A stretch of DNA of 64,000 nt from Bacteroidota bacterium (GTDB taxonomy: Bacteria; Bacteroidota; Bacteroidia; Bacteroidales; UBA12481), in the NCBI GenBank assembly GCA_018669475.1, contig JABHCC010000038.1, forward strand, positions 1 to 64,000, in the 5' to 3' direction. Below, piece by piece: positions 1,975 through 53,649 of the stretch; the first letter of the stretch is position 1; the number at the start of each line of letters is the position of its first letter. Position numbers and translations under genes: made by a program. The notes under the pieces were generated by a model. It was given only the letters and a program-made list of their open reading frames with translations, ran no database searches and was not told the origin of the DNA.

Positions 1975-2077
1975 ATGAACCGAGCATGACAAAAGGAAAA
2001 TTTTTTGACACACACGCGGATGATTGTTTTTGTTATGCGAGCTCCATCCGACAATTAAAATTAGATATAAAAGGATG
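1975..2077 (+). promoter_or_regulatory. 104-bp leader element, copy 1
   Basis: First of three near-identical elements; the others are at 24092-24195 and 51767-51870. The element begins ATGAACCGAGCATGACAAAA and ends at the start codon of the next gene. It holds a 6-bp inverted repeat CGGATG (2017-2022) / CATCCG (2045-2050) with a 22-nt loop, and exactly 24 nt separate the right arm from the ATG. The position suggests a 5'-UTR control element or a shared promoter cassette. Function is inferred only from conservation and placement. Confidence 0.7.
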
Positions 2078-4132
2078 AAAAAATTAATTGTACTTCTCTG
2101 TTTTGGAATGGTATTCCATGTTATTCATGCCCAGGAATTGATTGCCACTTGGTCTTTTAATCAGATTGTTGATGGCAGTGTTGTTGAAGATGTCTCGAAA
2201 AAATCAGACAAGATTGTTGGTTTTTTTGATCCGGCTGAGGGAATCCGGGAGGGAGCTATTCTCTTTGATGGTTTTACGAGTTTCTTGGAGAGGAAACAAT
2301 TTGGAGAGAATTTACCTGAGCAGTTTACAATTAATGCATGGGTGGCTCTTGAAGCTTACCCCTGGTTTCGCTGTCCGGTTTTTGACCTCCGGGTAGATGA
2401 AAAAGAAGGTCTGTTGCTGGCAATAAACCGTAATGGGGAGTTAACAGCGGGTTTGGGCCAGCCAATCAATTGGGAAGAGATGAGCGGGCCACAATTGCAA
2501 TTGAAAAAGTGGAATATGCTCAGCCTGGTTGTAAATCAGAAAGCTTCAGCTAGTTTGTACCTCAATGGGAAATTGGTTCAGGAGATTAAGGATAGTCCGA
2601 AGTTAAGAACTACCAATCGATACCATCTGACAGTTGGACGGAACTCAATTCTGGAAGAATGGTGGGATTTCCAATATACCGTAACTGATAGTTATTCATA
2701 TCTGGATGGAAGAGTAGATGAGCTGGCTGTTTATGCAGCTGCTCTGAATGCTGATCAAATAGGAGAGTTATTCTCTGATTATCAGCCTCTGCCTGAAATT
2801 ATGACTGAAGCACGTGTTCTTCCAGGGGGACCAGAAGGCCCGGCCGAATTTGGCGCATCTTATACCCGGCTTGATTATACCAAACAATGGGACAGGCTAT
2901 GGAGAGTTGGCGATTACCCTGATGTATTAGTTCGGTTTGCTGATAATAACTGTCGATTAGTTTTCTGGCGGGGGACCAGTTTTGTGCCTTGCTGGCTTAC
3001 AGAGAATGGTATTTGGTATACTAACGAATGGGCTGAAACCTGGGGTAGCGATGTCACCAGTTGTGCCGAGCCTCTGATGGATCGGGATTGCCGCTTCAGT
3101 CATGTGAGAATTATTGAAAACACAGCCGCCAGAACAATAGTGCACTGGCGTTATGGTTTGGTTGATACAGAGTATACATTTGTGGCCAAGGATGTAGATG
3201 GGCGAGGTGAGTGGGCTGATGAATATTATTTTATCTATCCTGATGGAATAGGAATAAGGCGTATTGATTTACACTATTCCAAACCTCTTAGAAAGCATGA
3301 TTGGGAAGAATCTATTGTATTGTTATCTCCCGGTCAGCATCCTGATGATGTAATGGATGATCCTGAAATTACTCTCGTGAATATGGCAGGCGAGAGCCAT
3401 GATTACTCATGGAGAAACGAGCTACCCATAGAAATGGAGAAACCTGATAAGGCCAATATTCATGTTGTAAACTTTAAAAGCGAGTACAAACCCTTCTATA
3501 TCATTCCTCCCGATCCTTTTGAATCGGCTGAAGGAAAATATGAATCCCCTTTCTTCAGATCATATTCTGCTTCACTTGCAGGTAATTGGAGCCCTGAATC
3601 AGTGCCAAGTATTTATGGTTGGTGGAATCACTGGCCTGTGACACCAGTGTCAGGTGATGGCAGATGGGTGCTTAACAATGATCGGGCCTCTCACTTTAAT
3701 CTCACCACTTTTACTCAATGGAAAGATTACTACATGGATGAAAGTGTGAAAACCCGTATCATGCTCCACGGAATGACAAATGAAAAGGCAGTAGATTTAG
3801 TGCCGCTTGCAGAGAGTTGGCTAAGCCCACCGTTTCTCAGAACAAGTGACGGTGAAGTGAAATATGAGCCGGCAGAACGTGCATACATTGTTGAGAATAT
3901 GTCTGGAGAGAAGTTTGAAGGAAAATTGTTGGCTTCGATTACAAATCCTGCCATCAAACCTGCAATCATACTGAAAGGGGTGAAATTAGATAATCCTGTG
4001 ATTGAGATTAATGGGAAAGCGATCACAGAAGGAGATTTTCAGTATGGTGTTGTAAAAGAGTTAAGCTTCTGGAAAACAATTATCTGGATAAATGATGATT
4101 TTAGTGACGGTACGACAATACTGATTCACTAA
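2075..4132 (+). CDS. Exported LamG domain plus unrecognised 'domain B' protein
   Basis: A 685-residue secreted protein. ATG 2075 is chosen because it starts a clean signal peptide (MKKLIVLLCFGMVFHVIHAQ) and directly follows the leader element; the upstream in-frame TTG would put the leader into the protein. Residues about 20-240 form a LamG/concanavalin-like jellyroll (FTINAWVALEAYPWF), probably glycan-binding. The remaining ~440 residues are an unrecognised domain, 'B', with conserved blocks VFWRGTSFVPCW, RFSHVRIIENTAAR and WWNHWP. The same LamG-B order forms the last two thirds of the protein at 59963-63646, and a B start is present at 63671. Aromatic- and Arg/His-rich conserved motifs suggest a carbohydrate-active domain, but no catalytic residues can be assigned. 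Confidence 0.8.
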   Translation: MKKLIVLLCFGMVFHVIHAQELIATWSFNQIVDGSVVEDVSKKSDKIVGFFDPAEGIREGAILFDGFTSFLERKQFGENLPEQFTINAWVALEAYPWFRCPVFDLRVDEKEGLLLAINRNGELTAGLGQPINWEEMSGPQLQLKKWNMLSLVVNQKASASLYLNGKLVQEIKDSPKLRTTNRYHLTVGRNSILEEWWDFQYTVTDSYSYLDGRVDELAVYAAALNADQIGELFSDYQPLPEIMTEARVLPGGPEGPAEFGASYTRLDYTKQWDRLWRVGDYPDVLVRFADNNCRLVFWRGTSFVPCWLTENGIWYTNEWAETWGSDVTSCAEPLMDRDCRFSHVRIIENTAARTIVHWRYGLVDTEYTFVAKDVDGRGEWADEYYFIYPDGIGIRRIDLHYSKPLRKHDWEESIVLLSPGQHPDDVMDDPEITLVNMAGESHDYSWRNELPIEMEKPDKANIHVVNFKSEYKPFYIIPPDPFESAEGKYESPFFRSYSASLAGNWSPESVPSIYGWWNHWPVTPVSGDGRWVLNNDRASHFNLTTFTQWKDYYMDESVKTRIMLHGMTNEKAVDLVPLAESWLSPPFLRTSDGEVKYEPAERAYIVENMSGEKFEGKLLASITNPAIKPAIILKGVKLDNPVIEINGKAITEGDFQYGVVKELSFWKTIIWINDDFSDGTTILIH

Positions 4133-13151: not shown

Positions 13152-13601
13152 CTACGGGAAGTACCTCTCGTCTACTTTGATCCCTTGACTTTTGAGTATA
13201 CTTCTTAGCTCGGCTTTATGAGATCTCTTTTTGTGATGTTCTCTTTGGTTCTTTATGTAGTTGGCAATCACGTTCTTATCTCTCCATGCGTAGGTGAATG
13301 CTGCATAACCTACTGACCAGCCATGGAATTTTGGGAATTTATCTGACTTTTTTAACCAGATCGAGGAGGCAGTCTTGATGTCGCGGATAAAATCAGCAAG
13401 GGCTATCGATGGGTGTAAATCACAAAGAATGTGCACATGATCTTCCATTCCATTGATGCGATAGAGGATACATCTTTTGTTTTTTATTGCCCCCATTAAG
13501 TAAGCATAGAGCTCATTGGAGTCTTCCAGTGTAAGAGATTTTCGATTAGACTTTGTGCGCAGTACGATGTGATAAAGGAGTTGACGGTAACTTGGCATCA
13601 T
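13152..13601 (-). CDS. REP-associated tyrosine transposase (IS200-like, Y1 HUH family)
   Basis: A 149-residue protein of the Y1 transposase/RAYT family, which nick and join single-stranded DNA at palindromic REP sequences. The HUH motif is HVH (H55, H57, in MEDHVHILC) and the candidate nucleophile is Y115 in NYIKNQREHH. The N-terminus (SYRQLLYHIVLRTK) is the typical opening. The gene appears full length and is flanked on its 3' side by a cluster of REP-like hairpins. It sits between two PUL hydrolase genes, so the insertion or domestication happened inside the locus. Whether it is active or a resident RAYT is not visible here. Confidence 0.88.
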   Translation of the reverse strand: MMPSYRQLLYHIVLRTKSNRKSLTLEDSNELYAYLMGAIKNKRCILYRINGMEDHVHILCDLHPSIALADFIRDIKTASSIWLKKSDKFPKFHGWSVGYAAFTYAWRDKNVIANYIKNQREHHKKRSHKAELRSILKSQGIKVDERYFP

Positions 13602-24091: not shown

Positions 24092-24195
24092 ATGAACCGA
24101 GCATGACAAAAGGAAAGATATTTTAACACACCCGCGGATGATTGTTATTGTTGTGCGAGCTCCATTCGGCAAGTAAAATTAAATATATACTGATG
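24092..24195 (+). promoter_or_regulatory. 104-bp leader element, copy 2 (orphan)
   Basis: It matches copies 1 and 3 over its whole length, including the inverted repeat CGGATG (24135-24140) / CATTCG (24163-24168). The single C-to-T change in the right arm keeps pairing as G-U. The loop is 22 nt and the spacing to the following ATG is 24 nt, as in the other copies. Unlike them it leads into only 14 codons before a stop. Confidence 0.65.
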
Positions 24196-24294: not shown

Positions 24295-24416
24295 GTTAGT
24301 TCAAAAATTGTGGTCAGCCTACCTTAGCATGTTAGTGATTGTAAGACACAATTCATTTTTAGACAGTCAAACCAAAATTTGTGATAAATAATCAAAATCC
24401 TTTAAATGAAACAACT

Positions 24417-27400
24417 ATGATTAACAAAAAACAGAAAAGTTATCTTCTATCTGTATTTCTGATAATATTTCTGGCCCTTTTTTCAGTACAGGCCACATAT
24501 TCTCAGGTACGAGATATTAGTGGCACGGTTACCGAGGACGAGACGACATTATATTTACCTGGAGTTAGTGTGTCGGTCAAAGGAACCACGCTTGGCACAA
24601 TTACAGATGCTGAGGGAAAGTATACTCTGGCTGGTGTTTCTAACAATGCTATTATGGTTTTCAGATACGTTGGAATGCTATCACAGGAAATTTCCAGTGG
24701 CACTCAGACAACCATCAACGTTGTGATGGCACCCGACTTGCTGGGGCTGGAGCAAGTTGTTGTTGTTGGTTATGGTACCAAGAAAAAAGTTAACCTCACA
24801 GGATCTGTATCTGTTGCAGACAAAGAGTTAATGGAGAGTAGGCCTGTAGGAAATGTACAGCAGGCCTTGCAGGGTATTGTACCCAACCTTGTCATTTCAC
24901 CTACTGCTGCAGGTGGTGAGCCGGGAGCAGATATGGCCATGAGTATCCGTGGATTATCATCTTTTGAAGGAGGCTCATCTCCTTACGTATTGGTTGATGG
25001 AATTCCAATGTCGATAAACGATATAGATCCTGATGACATTGAGTCTATCTCAGTATTAAAAGATGCTGCATCAACTTCGATTTATGGTGCCCGTGCTGCC
25101 TATGGTGTAATACTTATTACAACGAAAAGAGGACAGAAGGGTTCAAGAATATCTTACACAATGAACACAGGATGGAGCTCCCCAACTGTATGGCCACAAA
25201 TAATTGAAGGAAATATGGATTGGGCACATGCTTTGAACGATGCCAGGATTAATGGTGGCGGTTCACCATTATATACTGATAATGCCCTGGTTCGTCTGGC
25301 TATGAATTTGGCCAATCCAGGAAGTGCAGTTCCAATGCTACCATCAGCTGACGGTTTGGGCTGGGACATATTAAACACCGGAACCAAGGCTGTTGCCAAT
25401 GATGGCCTAACAGACCTGATTGTGGATAGGTGGGCACCAAGAACAAAGCACAATATTAGTGCTTCTGGAGGAAACGATGTTGTCAATTACTACGTTTCTG
25501 CAGGTTATTATGACGAACAGGGTATGATTAAGTGGGGAGATGAGGAGTTTGACAGGTATAATCTGGACGCTAAGATCAATGCAAAAGTAACTTCATGGAT
25601 GAAATTTGATTTCCTTGCCAAATATAACCGAGGACATGAAGATTTCCCATGGAACCAGAATTATGGTCGTGCATGGACTATGAACTGGATTAGTAAGATG
25701 AAGCCGGGGATGCCTGCCAAATACCCCGGAACTGATATTTGGCTTTCGAACACCAGGGTTGAGGAATGGAAAAATGTAAGACAGAATATTGTAACTAACC
25801 AATTCGTTGCTTCGCCAAGAATTATACTGGAACCCGTAAAAGGATGGGTAACAAATATTGAACTGAATTACACTGCCGATCAACAAAATGATGTAAGAAC
25901 AGTTAAACAATATCCATGGGTTAGACCAAATGGGGATATAGCCTATAATCCTCAAAGCAGGGCGCAAACACAATACAGATCCAGCATAGGGACAAATACT
26001 TATATCTCTCCTAACATATATACAAACTACAAAAAGTCTGTCGGAGCACATAATTTTAATCTTATGGCCGGATACAGGCAGGAATTATACCAATACAGCA
26101 ATCTAAATGCTACAGCATTTTATTTGCTAAGTGATGCGATCCCATCACTCAGCACTTCTGTTGGAGAAAAAACAATTACAGATGGTATAGGACACTGGGC
26201 AACACAGAGTGTATTCTCCAGACTGGCGTATAATTATGCTGAAAAATATTTGCTTGAAATTAATGTTAGCTCAGACGGATCCTCAAGGTTTGAGGATGGT
26301 CAAAGGTGGGGCGTATTCCCATCAGTTTCTGCAGGATGGGTCATTTCACAAGAAGACTTTTTTCCATTGCAGGACCAATTTGATCTTTTAAAGCTAAGAG
26401 CTTCTTATGGTACAGTTGGAAACCAGAATGTTGCCAATTATCTTTATATTCCAACATTACCAATTAGCGAAACGGGTCAGTGGTTGTTTAATGGAGCGAG
26501 GGCCTGGACAGTTGGAACCCCGAACCTTACCAGCGTTGACCTAACCTGGGAACAAGTTTCAACAATGGATATAGGAATTGATGCTATGTTACTGGCTAAT
26601 AGACTGGGTATTTCATTTGGAGTATATGATTCACGAACTACCAACCTGGTTGGACCGGGAACTCCTCTGCCTGCAGTACTTGGAACAGATGTACCAAAAG
26701 AAAACGAAGGTGAAATCCAGACACGTGGTTGGGAATTCGAGGCTGTATGGAAGAACAGGATAAGCAGAGATTTCAGCTATGAAATAAGAGGTGTCCTTTC
26801 TGATTATAAGAGAACCGTTATATCCTATAATAATCCTACCAAGCTACTGGGTGATAATATCTGGTTTGAAAATGATGTGTATTATGAAGGACAGGTACTG
26901 GGTGAGATTTGGGGTCTTGAATTTGACGGCTATTTCGATTCACAGGAAGAAGTTGATAACCATCCAACAGACCAGAGCTATGTTTATTCAGGTAACTGGT
27001 ATGCCGGTGATTCAAAGTTTGTTGATCAGAACGATGACGGTAAAATTGATATCGGTGATAATACCTTAGACAATCATGGAGACCTTGTTGTGCTCGGAAA
27101 CACTACACCTAGGTTTATATATGGGCTGAATGGTGGACTGAGGTGGAAAGGAATTGATATTTCTGTTCTTTTTCAGGGAGTAGGGAAAAGAGATATTGAT
27201 TTAGTGCAGGGAAGAGGGCCTTTCAGAGGACCAGCCGCAGGGCCTATGCATAATAATGTACTTGAGGGGCACCTGGATTATTGGCGTGATGAAACTAGCC
27301 CATTGGGTGAAAATATGGATGATCCCTATTTCCCACGCCCTTATGCCCAGTATTTCGGGCAAAATGCTAAAAACTATACTTATTCAACCGATCATTTCCT

Positions 27401-27638
27401 CCAAAATGCAGCATATCTAAGGTTGAAGAATATACGTATCGGATATACACTGCCTTCCAGTCTTACAGAAAAGTTTTTTGTTAAAAGTGCAAGGTTTTAT
27501 GTATCAGGTGAAAACCTGCTAACATTTACTAAGATGATGTTCTATGATCCAGAAGCATTTGGAGGAAGATGGTATGGAGTTGGAGATGCTTATCCCTTAA
27601 GTAAAACACTGTCTTTAGGATTAAATATTAATTTCTAA
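24417..27638 (+). CDS. susC: SusC/RagA-family TonB-dependent outer-membrane transporter
   Basis: A 1073-residue outer-membrane importer for glycan oligomers. ATG 24417 starts a signal peptide (MINKKQKSYLLSVFLII...); a GTG 12 codons upstream is less likely. A carboxypeptidase-regulatory-like domain (about 30-115, ISGTVTEDETTLYLPGVSVS) precedes the SusC signature VVVGYGTKKKVNLTGSV. The plug domain (about 120-235) has SIRGLSSFEGGSSPYVLVDG and ends in the block SIYGARAAYGVILITTKRG. The barrel runs to the C-terminal Phe (LSLGLNINF). susD follows 11 bp downstream. Together they import oligosaccharides across the outer membrane, energised by TonB. The symbol denotes the family; the substrate differs from starch. 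Confidence 0.96.
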   Translation: MINKKQKSYLLSVFLIIFLALFSVQATYSQVRDISGTVTEDETTLYLPGVSVSVKGTTLGTITDAEGKYTLAGVSNNAIMVFRYVGMLSQEISSGTQTTINVVMAPDLLGLEQVVVVGYGTKKKVNLTGSVSVADKELMESRPVGNVQQALQGIVPNLVISPTAAGGEPGADMAMSIRGLSSFEGGSSPYVLVDGIPMSINDIDPDDIESISVLKDAASTSIYGARAAYGVILITTKRGQKGSRISYTMNTGWSSPTVWPQIIEGNMDWAHALNDARINGGGSPLYTDNALVRLAMNLANPGSAVPMLPSADGLGWDILNTGTKAVANDGLTDLIVDRWAPRTKHNISASGGNDVVNYYVSAGYYDEQGMIKWGDEEFDRYNLDAKINAKVTSWMKFDFLAKYNRGHEDFPWNQNYGRAWTMNWISKMKPGMPAKYPGTDIWLSNTRVEEWKNVRQNIVTNQFVASPRIILEPVKGWVTNIELNYTADQQNDVRTVKQYPWVRPNGDIAYNPQSRAQTQYRSSIGTNTYISPNIYTNYKKSVGAHNFNLMAGYRQELYQYSNLNATAFYLLSDAIPSLSTSVGEKTITDGIGHWATQSVFSRLAYNYAEKYLLEINVSSDGSSRFEDGQRWGVFPSVSAGWVISQEDFFPLQDQFDLLKLRASYGTVGNQNVANYLYIPTLPISETGQWLFNGARAWTVGTPNLTSVDLTWEQVSTMDIGIDAMLLANRLGISFGVYDSRTTNLVGPGTPLPAVLGTDVPKENEGEIQTRGWEFEAVWKNRISRDFSYEIRGVLSDYKRTVISYNNPTKLLGDNIWFENDVYYEGQVLGEIWGLEFDGYFDSQEEVDNHPTDQSYVYSGNWYAGDSKFVDQNDDGKIDIGDNTLDNHGDLVVLGNTTPRFIYGLNGGLRWKGIDISVLFQGVGKRDIDLVQGRGPFRGPAAGPMHNNVLEGHLDYWRDETSPLGENMDDPYFPRPYAQYFGQNAKNYTYSTDHFLQNAAYLRLKNIRIGYTLPSSLTEKFFVKSARFYVSGENLLTFTKMMFYDPEAFGGRWYGVGDAYPLSKTLSLGLNINF

Positions 27639-51766: not shown

Positions 51767-51870
51767 ATGAACCGGGCATGACAAAAGGAAAGATATTTTA
51801 ACACACACGCGGATGATTGTTTTTGTTGTGCGAGCTCCATCCGATAAATAGAAATAAATATAAACGGATG
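51767..51870 (+). promoter_or_regulatory. 104-bp leader element, copy 3
   Basis: The third copy, beginning ATGAACCGGGCATGACAAAA and ending at the start codon of the DUF4091 gene. The inverted repeat is CGGATG (51810-51815) / CATCCG (51838-51843), with a 22-nt loop and 24 nt to the ATG, as in the other copies. It sits in the 124-bp gap after the GH78 gene, which breaks the run of overlapping genes and probably marks a new transcription or translation unit. Confidence 0.7.
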
Positions 51871-53649
51871 AAATCTACCATTACATTATTGTTTATAGCA
51901 GTATTCTGCATGACTTGTGGCACAACAAAGATTGTTAAAACCATAGATGAACCAGCTGATCCTGATACCTATGATCTGTCGGTATGGGAAACTGTAGAAC
52001 CAGGGATTCACTCCGGTTTCGGATCAACGGATCTTGCATATTCGAAAAGTATTCCTCCGGAAGGAAATATATCTGAAGCAACTAATCTCCAGGGCTGGAA
52101 GGGCGAACGAGTCTCTTGTAAATTGCTGGTATGGTCGAATGGCACAATTGAAAACATCAGAATAAAAACAAAAAGTTTTGGTAATTCTGATTATAGCTTT
52201 GATAAAAACAGTACATCAATCTCCCTTGTAAAATATGTGCTCACCGACCAGTTTTTAAATGAGAATTCAGGAGCATGTGGGCCCAGGGATAATGATAAGG
52301 TTCCTGTTCATTTGACTCCTGATATCATAAGTAATGAAAGTAGTTTTTCTATCGACGCTAAAGGTACTCGTCCTGTTTGGATATCGGTTGACATACCAGA
52401 AAATGCACCGGCTGGTATTTATACAGGGAGCATCAGTATAAAATCAAAGTCTGGCACAAAAAAACATGACATTACACTTGAAGTACTTAATAAGAAGCTC
52501 CCTCCGCCATCGGAATGGTCTTTCCATTTAGATCTCTGGCAAAACCCATTCGCAGTTGCGCGGTTTCAAAATGTTGAATTATGGTCGATGGAACATATTG
52601 AATTGCTGAGGTCCTACCTAACAATGCTCTCTAATGCAGGGCAAAAATGTATTACGGCCACATTGATTGACAAGCCATGGGGGGATAATAAACCCTGCTA
52701 TGATGATTTTGGCTCCATGATATCCTGGACCAGGAAGAAGGATGGGAAATGGGAATATGATTATACGATCTTCGACCAATATGTAAACCTGGCAATGGAG
52801 TGTGGCATAAAAAAGCAGATTAATTGCTATTCTATGGTGCCTATCAATAATAAGTTTTCGTGGTACGATGAAGCGAGCTCAGAAACTGTTGTTCAGGAGT
52901 TATTTCCAGGGACAAAAAAATATGAAGATCTGTGGCAGGGGTTTTTGATTGACTTTAGAGTTCATTTGAAGGAAAAGGCTTGGTTAGACATTACAACAAT
53001 TGCTTTGGATGAGCGGGAAGAAGAAGAGATGACAAATATGTTCAGCTTCTTAGCGAAAACTGCCCCTGAATTTAAAATTGCGATGGCGGGATTTTATCAT
53101 GAGAGTATCAACTTATCAATTTATGATTTCAGTTCCAATTGGAGGGACTACGGAAGAATCCCTACTAAGGCTATTAAAACAAGAAAGGAAGCCGGTCTGA
53201 TAACGACTTATTATGTGGCCTGCGGTATCCCAAAACCCAATAATTTCACTTTTTCACCCCCCTCAGAATCATGTTTTGAAGGATGGATAGCCTCGGCAAT
53301 GGGATTTGATGGCTTTTTAAGATGGGCATATAACAGCTGGCCTGAAAAACCATTGATCGATTCAAGATATACCAAGTGGCCAGCAGGTGATACATATTTT
53401 ATATATCCGGGACCTCTAAGCTCAGTTCGGTTTGAGAGACTGAGAGAGGGAATCCAGGATTATGAAAAGATCAGGATAATAAGAAATGAATTGGATCAAA
53501 AGAATTCACCTGAAGCGGCAGCTGCCAGAATGAAATTGGATGAATTTCTTAGCTCAATTGACTCAAAAACTCTTGATGATAAATCAGCTGCTGAGGTAAT
53601 TAATGAAGGGAAAAGCCTGCTCAATGAAATAGTAAAATCTACTTTTTAA
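51868..53649 (+). CDS. DUF4091 / GH123-like exported glycoside hydrolase candidate
   Basis: A 593-residue lipoprotein (lipobox FCMTCGTTK). ATG 51868 is used; the in-frame TTG upstream would translate the leader element. A beta-rich N-terminal domain (about 35-210, WKGERVSCKLLVWSNG; PVWISVDIPENAPAGIYTGS) is followed by a TIM-barrel-like region (HLDLWQNPFAVARF; TTIALDEREEEEM; RKEAGLITTYYVACGIPKP). It ends in the DUF4091-type C-terminus (GFDGFLRWAYNSWP; GDTYFIYPGP; RLREGIQDYEKIRII). This architecture is shared with GH123-related proteins. The adjacent D-E in ALDERE is a candidate catalytic pair, consistent with substrate-assisted hexosaminidases, but that is inference. Confidence 0.8.
   Translation: MKSTITLLFIAVFCMTCGTTKIVKTIDEPADPDTYDLSVWETVEPGIHSGFGSTDLAYSKSIPPEGNISEATNLQGWKGERVSCKLLVWSNGTIENIRIKTKSFGNSDYSFDKNSTSISLVKYVLTDQFLNENSGACGPRDNDKVPVHLTPDIISNESSFSIDAKGTRPVWISVDIPENAPAGIYTGSISIKSKSGTKKHDITLEVLNKKLPPPSEWSFHLDLWQNPFAVARFQNVELWSMEHIELLRSYLTMLSNAGQKCITATLIDKPWGDNKPCYDDFGSMISWTRKKDGKWEYDYTIFDQYVNLAMECGIKKQINCYSMVPINNKFSWYDEASSETVVQELFPGTKKYEDLWQGFLIDFRVHLKEKAWLDITTIALDEREEEEMTNMFSFLAKTAPEFKIAMAGFYHESINLSIYDFSSNWRDYGRIPTKAIKTRKEAGLITTYYVACGIPKPNNFTFSPPSESCFEGWIASAMGFDGFLRWAYNSWPEKPLIDSRYTKWPAGDTYFIYPGPLSSVRFERLREGIQDYEKIRIIRNELDQKNSPEAAAARMKLDEFLSSIDSKTLDDKSAAEVINEGKSLLNEIVKSTF

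Follow-up and report, generated by a model that had tools for sequence, protein, structure and literature searches.

A small, probably mobile DNA element that sits at start codons and replaces them in a Bacteroidota genome

The stretch of DNA analysed here (the window: 64,000 nt, positions 1 to 64,000 of contig JABHCC010000038.1, assembly GCA_018669475.1) carries three near-identical copies of a short element, all on the + strand, at 1975-2077 (103 bp), 24092-24195 and 51767-51870. An earlier note on this DNA had reported these copies, and on re-checking the coordinates we found them to be real. Copy 1 ends at the ATG (2075-2077) of the gene for a 685-aa Laminin_G_3 protein (2075-4132, +), and copy 3 ends at the ATG (51868-51870) of a GH123 gene with a 593-aa ORF (51868-53649, +; called DUF4091 in the earlier note). 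The ATG of copy 2 opens only a 14-codon ORF, in intergenic sequence about 190 nt before the next ORF, that of a TonB-dependent receptor (24381-27638). The claim that the element always ends at a start codon is thus correct for copies 1 and 3 and incorrect for copy 2.

Copy 3 illustrates the plan of the element. Its left ATGAA (51767-51771, +) forms one side of a 5-bp direct repeat and would represent the native start-codon position; the ATG lies 23 nt past the stop of the upstream rhamnosidase gene. There follow the two arms of a hairpin, H1 (5' arm GCATGACAAAA, 51776-51786, +; 3' arm TTTTGTTGTGC, 51821-51831, +), and then CATCCG (51838-51843, +), the CAT of which has two possible partners: the left ATG (P1) or, read as CATNNN, the NNNATG of the right end (H2). 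The right end, CGGATGAA (51865-51872, +), comprises the 3' arm of H2 and the right ATGAA, and provides the present start codon of the gene. A stem proposed previously (CGGATG/CATCCG, with CATTCG in copy 2, a loop of 22 nt, and 24 nt separating its right arm from the ATG) is present in the window copies; its left arm in copy 3 is an internal CGGATG (51810-51815, +) that is not conserved outside this genome, where an internal copy of the terminal NNNATG was found in only 2 of 53 copies, so that this stem is not a feature of the family. The fixed spacing to the ATG, to which the same note drew attention, is indeed meaningful, and follows from the ATG being itself the element's right end.

Three copies proved to be a large under-count. 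Across the genome (5.56 Mb in 215 contigs), a 27-base core allowing up to 3 mismatches matched 76 times, split 36 to 40 between the strands, with 0 matches to the reversed pattern, and a left-end pattern matched 113 times against 0 for its reversed control (about 100 places among the matches listed). BLAST within the genome gave at least 42 matches, with 40 of 149 candidates scored, and a profile run over the fetched loci gave 82, comprising 80 in this genome (including one counted twice where loci overlap) and one each in two others (G002 and G059).

The clearest tandem pair consists of copies 101 bp apart with an ATG in common, from which we take the unit to be about 101 bp between two ATGAA pentamers. 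There are no terminal inverted repeats; the second ATGAA opens the element at the left, and the ends are direct repeats of this pentamer. ATGAA was found at the right end of all 65 aligned full copies (two of 67 were left out of the alignment). Of 118 raw left-end rows, 10 of which were later dropped, 95 have ATG at the left. Three copies (L160, L161 and L168) have ATGCA at the right end and ATGAA or TTGAA at the left, so that either the true duplication is 3 bp or those sites have mutated. Native GTG or TTG starts at the left end were considered and rejected, as the changes in the left codon look like ordinary mutation.

Incomplete forms also occur. The left end is missing in eight copies, which likewise end at an ORF of more than 200 codons, and both ends are missing in a ninth. 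Of fifteen copies that span only 43-47 bp, 13 terminate at the internal CGGATG, the outcome expected of a deletion between the two CGGATGA repeats; this internal CGGATG is the probable deletion point of the short forms of about 46 bp. One short-form copy (L153, near 1085 of G000:C208) is joined to an apparent coding-sequence 3' end, and the element there may sit in a gene remnant. At L148, L129, L162 and loci L301-L319 of another genome (G223), an extra small hairpin of the CCCGATNNNATCGGGA type replaces the CATNNG site or stands beside it, and may be another very small repeat lodged within the element.

The position of the copies relative to genes was tallied from 118 left-end matches in the fetched loci; 10 weak ones were dropped, leaving 108, and six that precede another copy were set aside, leaving 102. 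The right-hand ATG opens a gene in 82 of these 102, meaning that it opens an ORF or stands in frame at an ORF start (85 fell in the expected spans, and L110, L068 and L161 were removed on reading the printed contexts). The other 20 comprise 3 within a few bases of a gene start, 7 farther away and 10 without a gene start by the rule used; copy 2 of the window is among these ten, some of which have an internal deletion or a changed ATG. Across the genome, then, the placement at a start codon is exact in most copies and fails in the remainder, and random spacing from starts, which according to the earlier note would tell against its reading, was not found. At L156, L158 and L169 the genes apparently start at an inner GCATG, the leader being the first 11 bases of the element only. 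The genes that follow the copies, which that note had suggested counting, are unrelated and dispersed in the genome. From their N-termini, we take the proteins to include chorismate synthase, histidinol dehydrogenase, PheT, DapB, GldD, NeuB and a NiFe hydrogenase, and those led by short forms to include MetG, MnmA and dUTPase.

If the right-hand ATG is the present start codon, the left-hand one may be the former. With upstream frames of at least 90 codons, the upstream stop overlaps the left ATG as ATGA (exactly -4) in 5 of 81 rows, and in 18 of the 81 the left ATG lies 1-40 nt past that stop. Short upstream frames (MNRA and MTKGKIF, each then a stop) were also spotted by eye. Relatives at genus, family and order distance were examined for two of the five ATGA-overlap pairs. 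For the first, which involves a gene we presume to be DUF4340-like, the ten closest of 22 matching other genomes (one of the same genus) were printed, and in all ten the upstream stop lies at -7 to +4 nt from the start, compared with -97 here. For iorA/iorB the distance is -11 to +7 in 10 of the 14 relatives printed, again compared with -97 here, the reference point in the iorB rows being mostly 3 nt before the ATG; of the exceptions, one relative stands at -94 (L185) and three have no long upstream frame. Because the pairs abut without an insert in most of the relatives printed, we read the left ATG as the old start and the right ATG as the new one. These comparisons show, at the level of sequence, that the element lies between the native start-codon position and codon 2, with ATGAA on both sides.

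The earlier note was also right that the leader is structured, and the helices that recur are H1 and H2. In the alignment of 65 close copies, H1 is paired in 97.8% and H2 in 94.6% of cells; there are 5 double-change cells, a number reached in 1 of 500 shuffles, and the combined covariation score of H1 and H2 was reached in 0 of 500. Among 24 more diverse copies the combined score did not stand out clearly from shuffles, 72 of 500 of which reached it, and RNAalifold on the 65-copy alignment alone returned H1 only, without double changes. The CGGATG/CATCCG helix was rejected as an alternative; it is paired in 91.8% (65 close copies) and 79.2% (24 diverse copies), compared with 94.6% and 89.6% for H2.

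Between genomes the pairing in H2 is clearer, and the triplet just upstream of the new ATG covaries with the one that follows the internal CAT. For this tally 56 covariance-model copies were chosen by hand, of which 53 were used and 3 dropped, anchored on CATNNN followed by semi-conserved bases. The arms are fully complementary in 34 of 44 distinct genome-arm combinations from 35 sources, one of them a phage contig (the mean in shuffles was 12.1, and 0 of 20,000 reached 34), in the forms CTG/CAG (19), ATG/CAT (5), GTG/CAC (5), CCG/CGG (3) and ACG/CGT (2), and in 15 of 25 when the commonest form is removed. A poorer anchor, the last TCAT or CCAT, which this one replaced, had given 28 of 49 against a shuffled mean of 12.1. 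The same CAT can also close a hairpin with the left ATG, as ATGAAAC/GTTCCAT in 26 of 53 copies, with the A-C mismatch kept, and as ATGAAAT/ATTCCAT in 3 of 53. The segment from ATG to CAT folds with a median z of -2.93 relative to shuffles, and its minimum-energy fold closes ATG/CAT in 31 of 53. Within the hairpin, 21 or 22 of 53 copies (by two versions of the pattern) carry a CACA...ATGATTA motif, for which shuffled sequence gave 0.02 under the first version. G-U wobble is common on the top strand, which fits either RNA or top-strand DNA.

The element is also found in other genomes. BLAST gave matches in 2 of 59 relatives, and in a public pattern scan, which may omit the genome studied here, only the Bacteroidota MAG CSMAG_468 matched. 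A covariance-model search of Bacteroidota genomes, as the earlier note had proposed, reached farther: built from 24 copies and read at E <= 0.001, the model matched 92 of the 393 genomes searched in the order, where up to 10 candidates were scored per genome, and 13 of the 395 in the phylum, both counts including the genome itself. These copies are strongly diverged and keep the plan, namely ATGAA(A/C)C, a long hairpin, G(T/C)TCCAT-NNG, an A/T-rich stretch and NNN-ATGAA. In three sets of such matches the terminal ATG is followed by an open frame of 60 or more codons in 15 of 19, in a further 14 of 21 (one copy printed twice was counted once) and in 9 of 11. The single-contig genome G223 has three identical copies at unrelated sites, one opening a 361-codon frame that reaches the end of the locus and two opening frames of 9 and 41 codons. 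Genes that we take to be lpxB-like each carry a copy in two distant genomes, G223 (L313) and G692 (L347), which may be chance or a recurrent site.

Scans of viral contigs gave 0, 1, 0 and 0 stretches. One phage-like contig (L325; IMGVR_UViG_3300010430_006947) has at about 2971-3021 (-) a minimal form before an ORF, with the hairpin cut to four loop bases and the CAT and NNNATG kept. Three queries against phage and plasmid records gave no match. Rfam gave 0 matches in the window and, for 16 loci at E up to 5, 8 matches, none of which reached its gathering score.

No transposase gene was seen in or beside any copy (neighbouring genes were not annotated systematically), nor was an autonomous or full-length parent version. 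The only Y1 (IS200-type) transposase gene found in the search of this genome lies in the window at 13152-13601 (-), and its protein scores 69.3 bits against IS200 (cut-off 55) and 23.9 against the REP transposase, below the cut-off of 80. This gene adjoins palindromes of the GGGCTTCACCC type. We considered it as the mobiliser and rejected it, since other palindromes surround it and the element is not at its ends. Y1 genes are present in all 12 of the element-rich genomes, at 47 places; among the 30 of these loci that were examined, 2 had a match within 1.5 kb and 0 were flanked by the element. PF14239 (IscB/IsrB) matched in 0 of 13, with a control that likewise matched nowhere.

Taken together, we consider it probable that these copies represent a non-autonomous mobile DNA element of small size, about 96 bp and the 5-bp ATGAA repeat, which inserts at ATGAA and persists mainly at start codons. 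It has inserted about a hundred times in this genome, mostly exactly at start codons. On insertion at ATGAA the left ATG would be the former start and the right ATG its replacement, the coding sequence staying intact because the element ends in an A-rich region and an ATG of its own. The CAT may act as a guide that recognises ATG both at the target (the left end) and at the right end. Movement would involve the top strand as single-stranded DNA and an enzyme acting in trans, perhaps a Y1/HUH transposase by analogy with IS200/IS605. In Flavobacterium johnsoniae, adenine at four positions (-3, -6, -12 and -13) is described as promoting initiation (PMC6847099); the tail consensus of the element has A at -6 and -12, which may be why insertion into a start codon is tolerated. 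H2 would hide the new start codon, and an effect on expression is therefore possible.

The predominance of start codons among the sites calls for either retention or targeting. In a 104-kb sample with approximate gene calls, from a contig of few long genes, ATGAA (on either strand) occurred 23 times at starts, 23 times between genes and 436 times inside genes; it is equally frequent at starts and between genes, and the copies number 82 exactly at starts against 10 without a gene. This imbalance would be expected if the enzyme actively singled out working start codons, for instance by way of the DNA or mRNA of the initiation region, and not any ATGAA. The left copy scores below the right in all six tandem pairs, as if each new copy had entered at the current start, and this order, with the left copy older, could be a sign of targeting. 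Two of the three identical G223 copies open only short frames, however, as do 11 of the 28 ends in that genome that have no following copy (a few of these are tandem variants or doubtful matches), and we think targeting unlikely. The mixed placement of the identical copies, small as the numbers are, leads us to favour retention, which would account for most of the dominance of start-codon copies: copies would be harmful inside genes and would decay elsewhere, and at a start codon they would be an indispensable leader.

The earlier note had seen in the element a selected leader that ties scattered genes to a PUL. It correctly recognised a structured 5' leader that usually ends at a start codon; the link to the PUL was not borne out, since the genes led are functionally unrelated and scattered across the genome. 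In a more general form, the element could be a selected cis-regulatory 5'-UTR RNA, in which H2 hides the start and the CAT swaps between the left and right ATG, switching the translation of a regulon. That H2 covaries and takes in the start codon, that P1 and H2 have the CAT in common and that the wobble pairs lie on the mRNA-sense strand are all as such a switch would require. Yet the genes, as named from their N-termini, share no function; the two gene pairs examined lack the insert in most of the relatives printed; there are tandem copies and identical copies at unrelated places; some copies lead no gene; and there is no Rfam family. A regulatory RNA is in our view quite improbable. A retro-type (SINE-like) origin, with RNA reverse-transcribed from a 3' end primed at ATGAA, would explain an exact right end beside the eight copies lacking the left, and is very unlikely given that the left end is full in most copies, that ATGAA is repeated on both sides, and that the upstream frame enters the element in 6 of the 8 truncated copies, as decay or replacement predicts.

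As a mobile element, it resembles in outline the IS200/IS605 family (IS608 type). IS608 is described as inserting 3' to a tetranucleotide that is kept on the left, with guide bases that pair with the target and cleavage sites (PMC5934647). The element likewise retains a short fixed target on its left side and has empty sites in relatives, an imperfect hairpin near the left end, no terminal inverted repeats and bases able to pair with both end sequences, as reported for IS608 (PMC5934647), which suggests by analogy an IS200/IS605-like single-strand transposition. It differs in that the pairing CAT lies 3' of the hairpin, whereas the IS608 guide is placed 5' (PMC5934647), and in having one large hairpin and the same ATGAA on both flanks; neither a transposase nor a full-length parent was found for it, nor, among the 30 Y1 loci examined, an element that encodes a Y1 transposase and has the same ends.

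Other small repeats also share features with it. Like bacterial MITEs (e.g., BrickBuilt of Porphyromonas gingivalis), the element is short, multi-copy, non-coding and mobile, but BrickBuilt is reported to lie 49-591 nt from coding sequences and to have inverted-repeat ends (PMC4596501), whereas our element touches the coding sequence and has no such ends. As regards the target-site duplication of a classical MITE, there is ATGAA on both sides, with ATGCA at the right only in three copies. HEARO inserts at ATGA or GTGA; the element is too small for a guide RNA of roughly 300 nt or an ORF of the HEARO/IsrB-IscB kind, and has no Rfam match. For IsrB, an NTGA target-adjacent motif is reported (PMC9581776). 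With REP sequences and TnpA-REP (RAYT) it shares the nature of scattered hairpin DNA, for which a domesticated Y1 protein is a possible mover (PMC8266576), but it is about 100 bp long and bounded by ATGAA, compared with the 20-40 bp given for REP palindromes (PMC3733652). Among the titles and abstract openings returned by literature searches on start codon-related repeats and MITEs, none described such an element, and the term "start codon" is absent from the main text of a review of prokaryotic MITEs. Small mobile repeats are familiar as a type of element; within the reach of these searches, one that lives in start codons and replaces them is undescribed.

A wider proposal, which we hold tentatively and would place somewhat short of probable, is that these elements form a new, phylum-wide class of miniature transposons. 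Their own bases (the CAT and its neighbours) would read start codons by pairing, and the inserted element would re-create the start and the initiation region, and so be harmless even before essential genes; the hairpin would vary freely from genome to genome under a constant CAT/ATG pairing, and a shared enzyme would move all the variants.

Avoidance of genes is the usual way for a mobile element to survive; this one occupies the start codon itself and supplies the gene with a new one. In a single genome it has altered the leaders of roughly ninety genes, among them genes that we presume to be usually essential (pheT, metG and dapB), and it recurs in many Bacteroidota. Such an element would explain many of the odd 5' leaders in Bacteroidota genomes, bears on the choice of start codon in bacteria without Shine-Dalgarno sites, and may reveal a compact mobile element in which the choice of target is set by base pairing.
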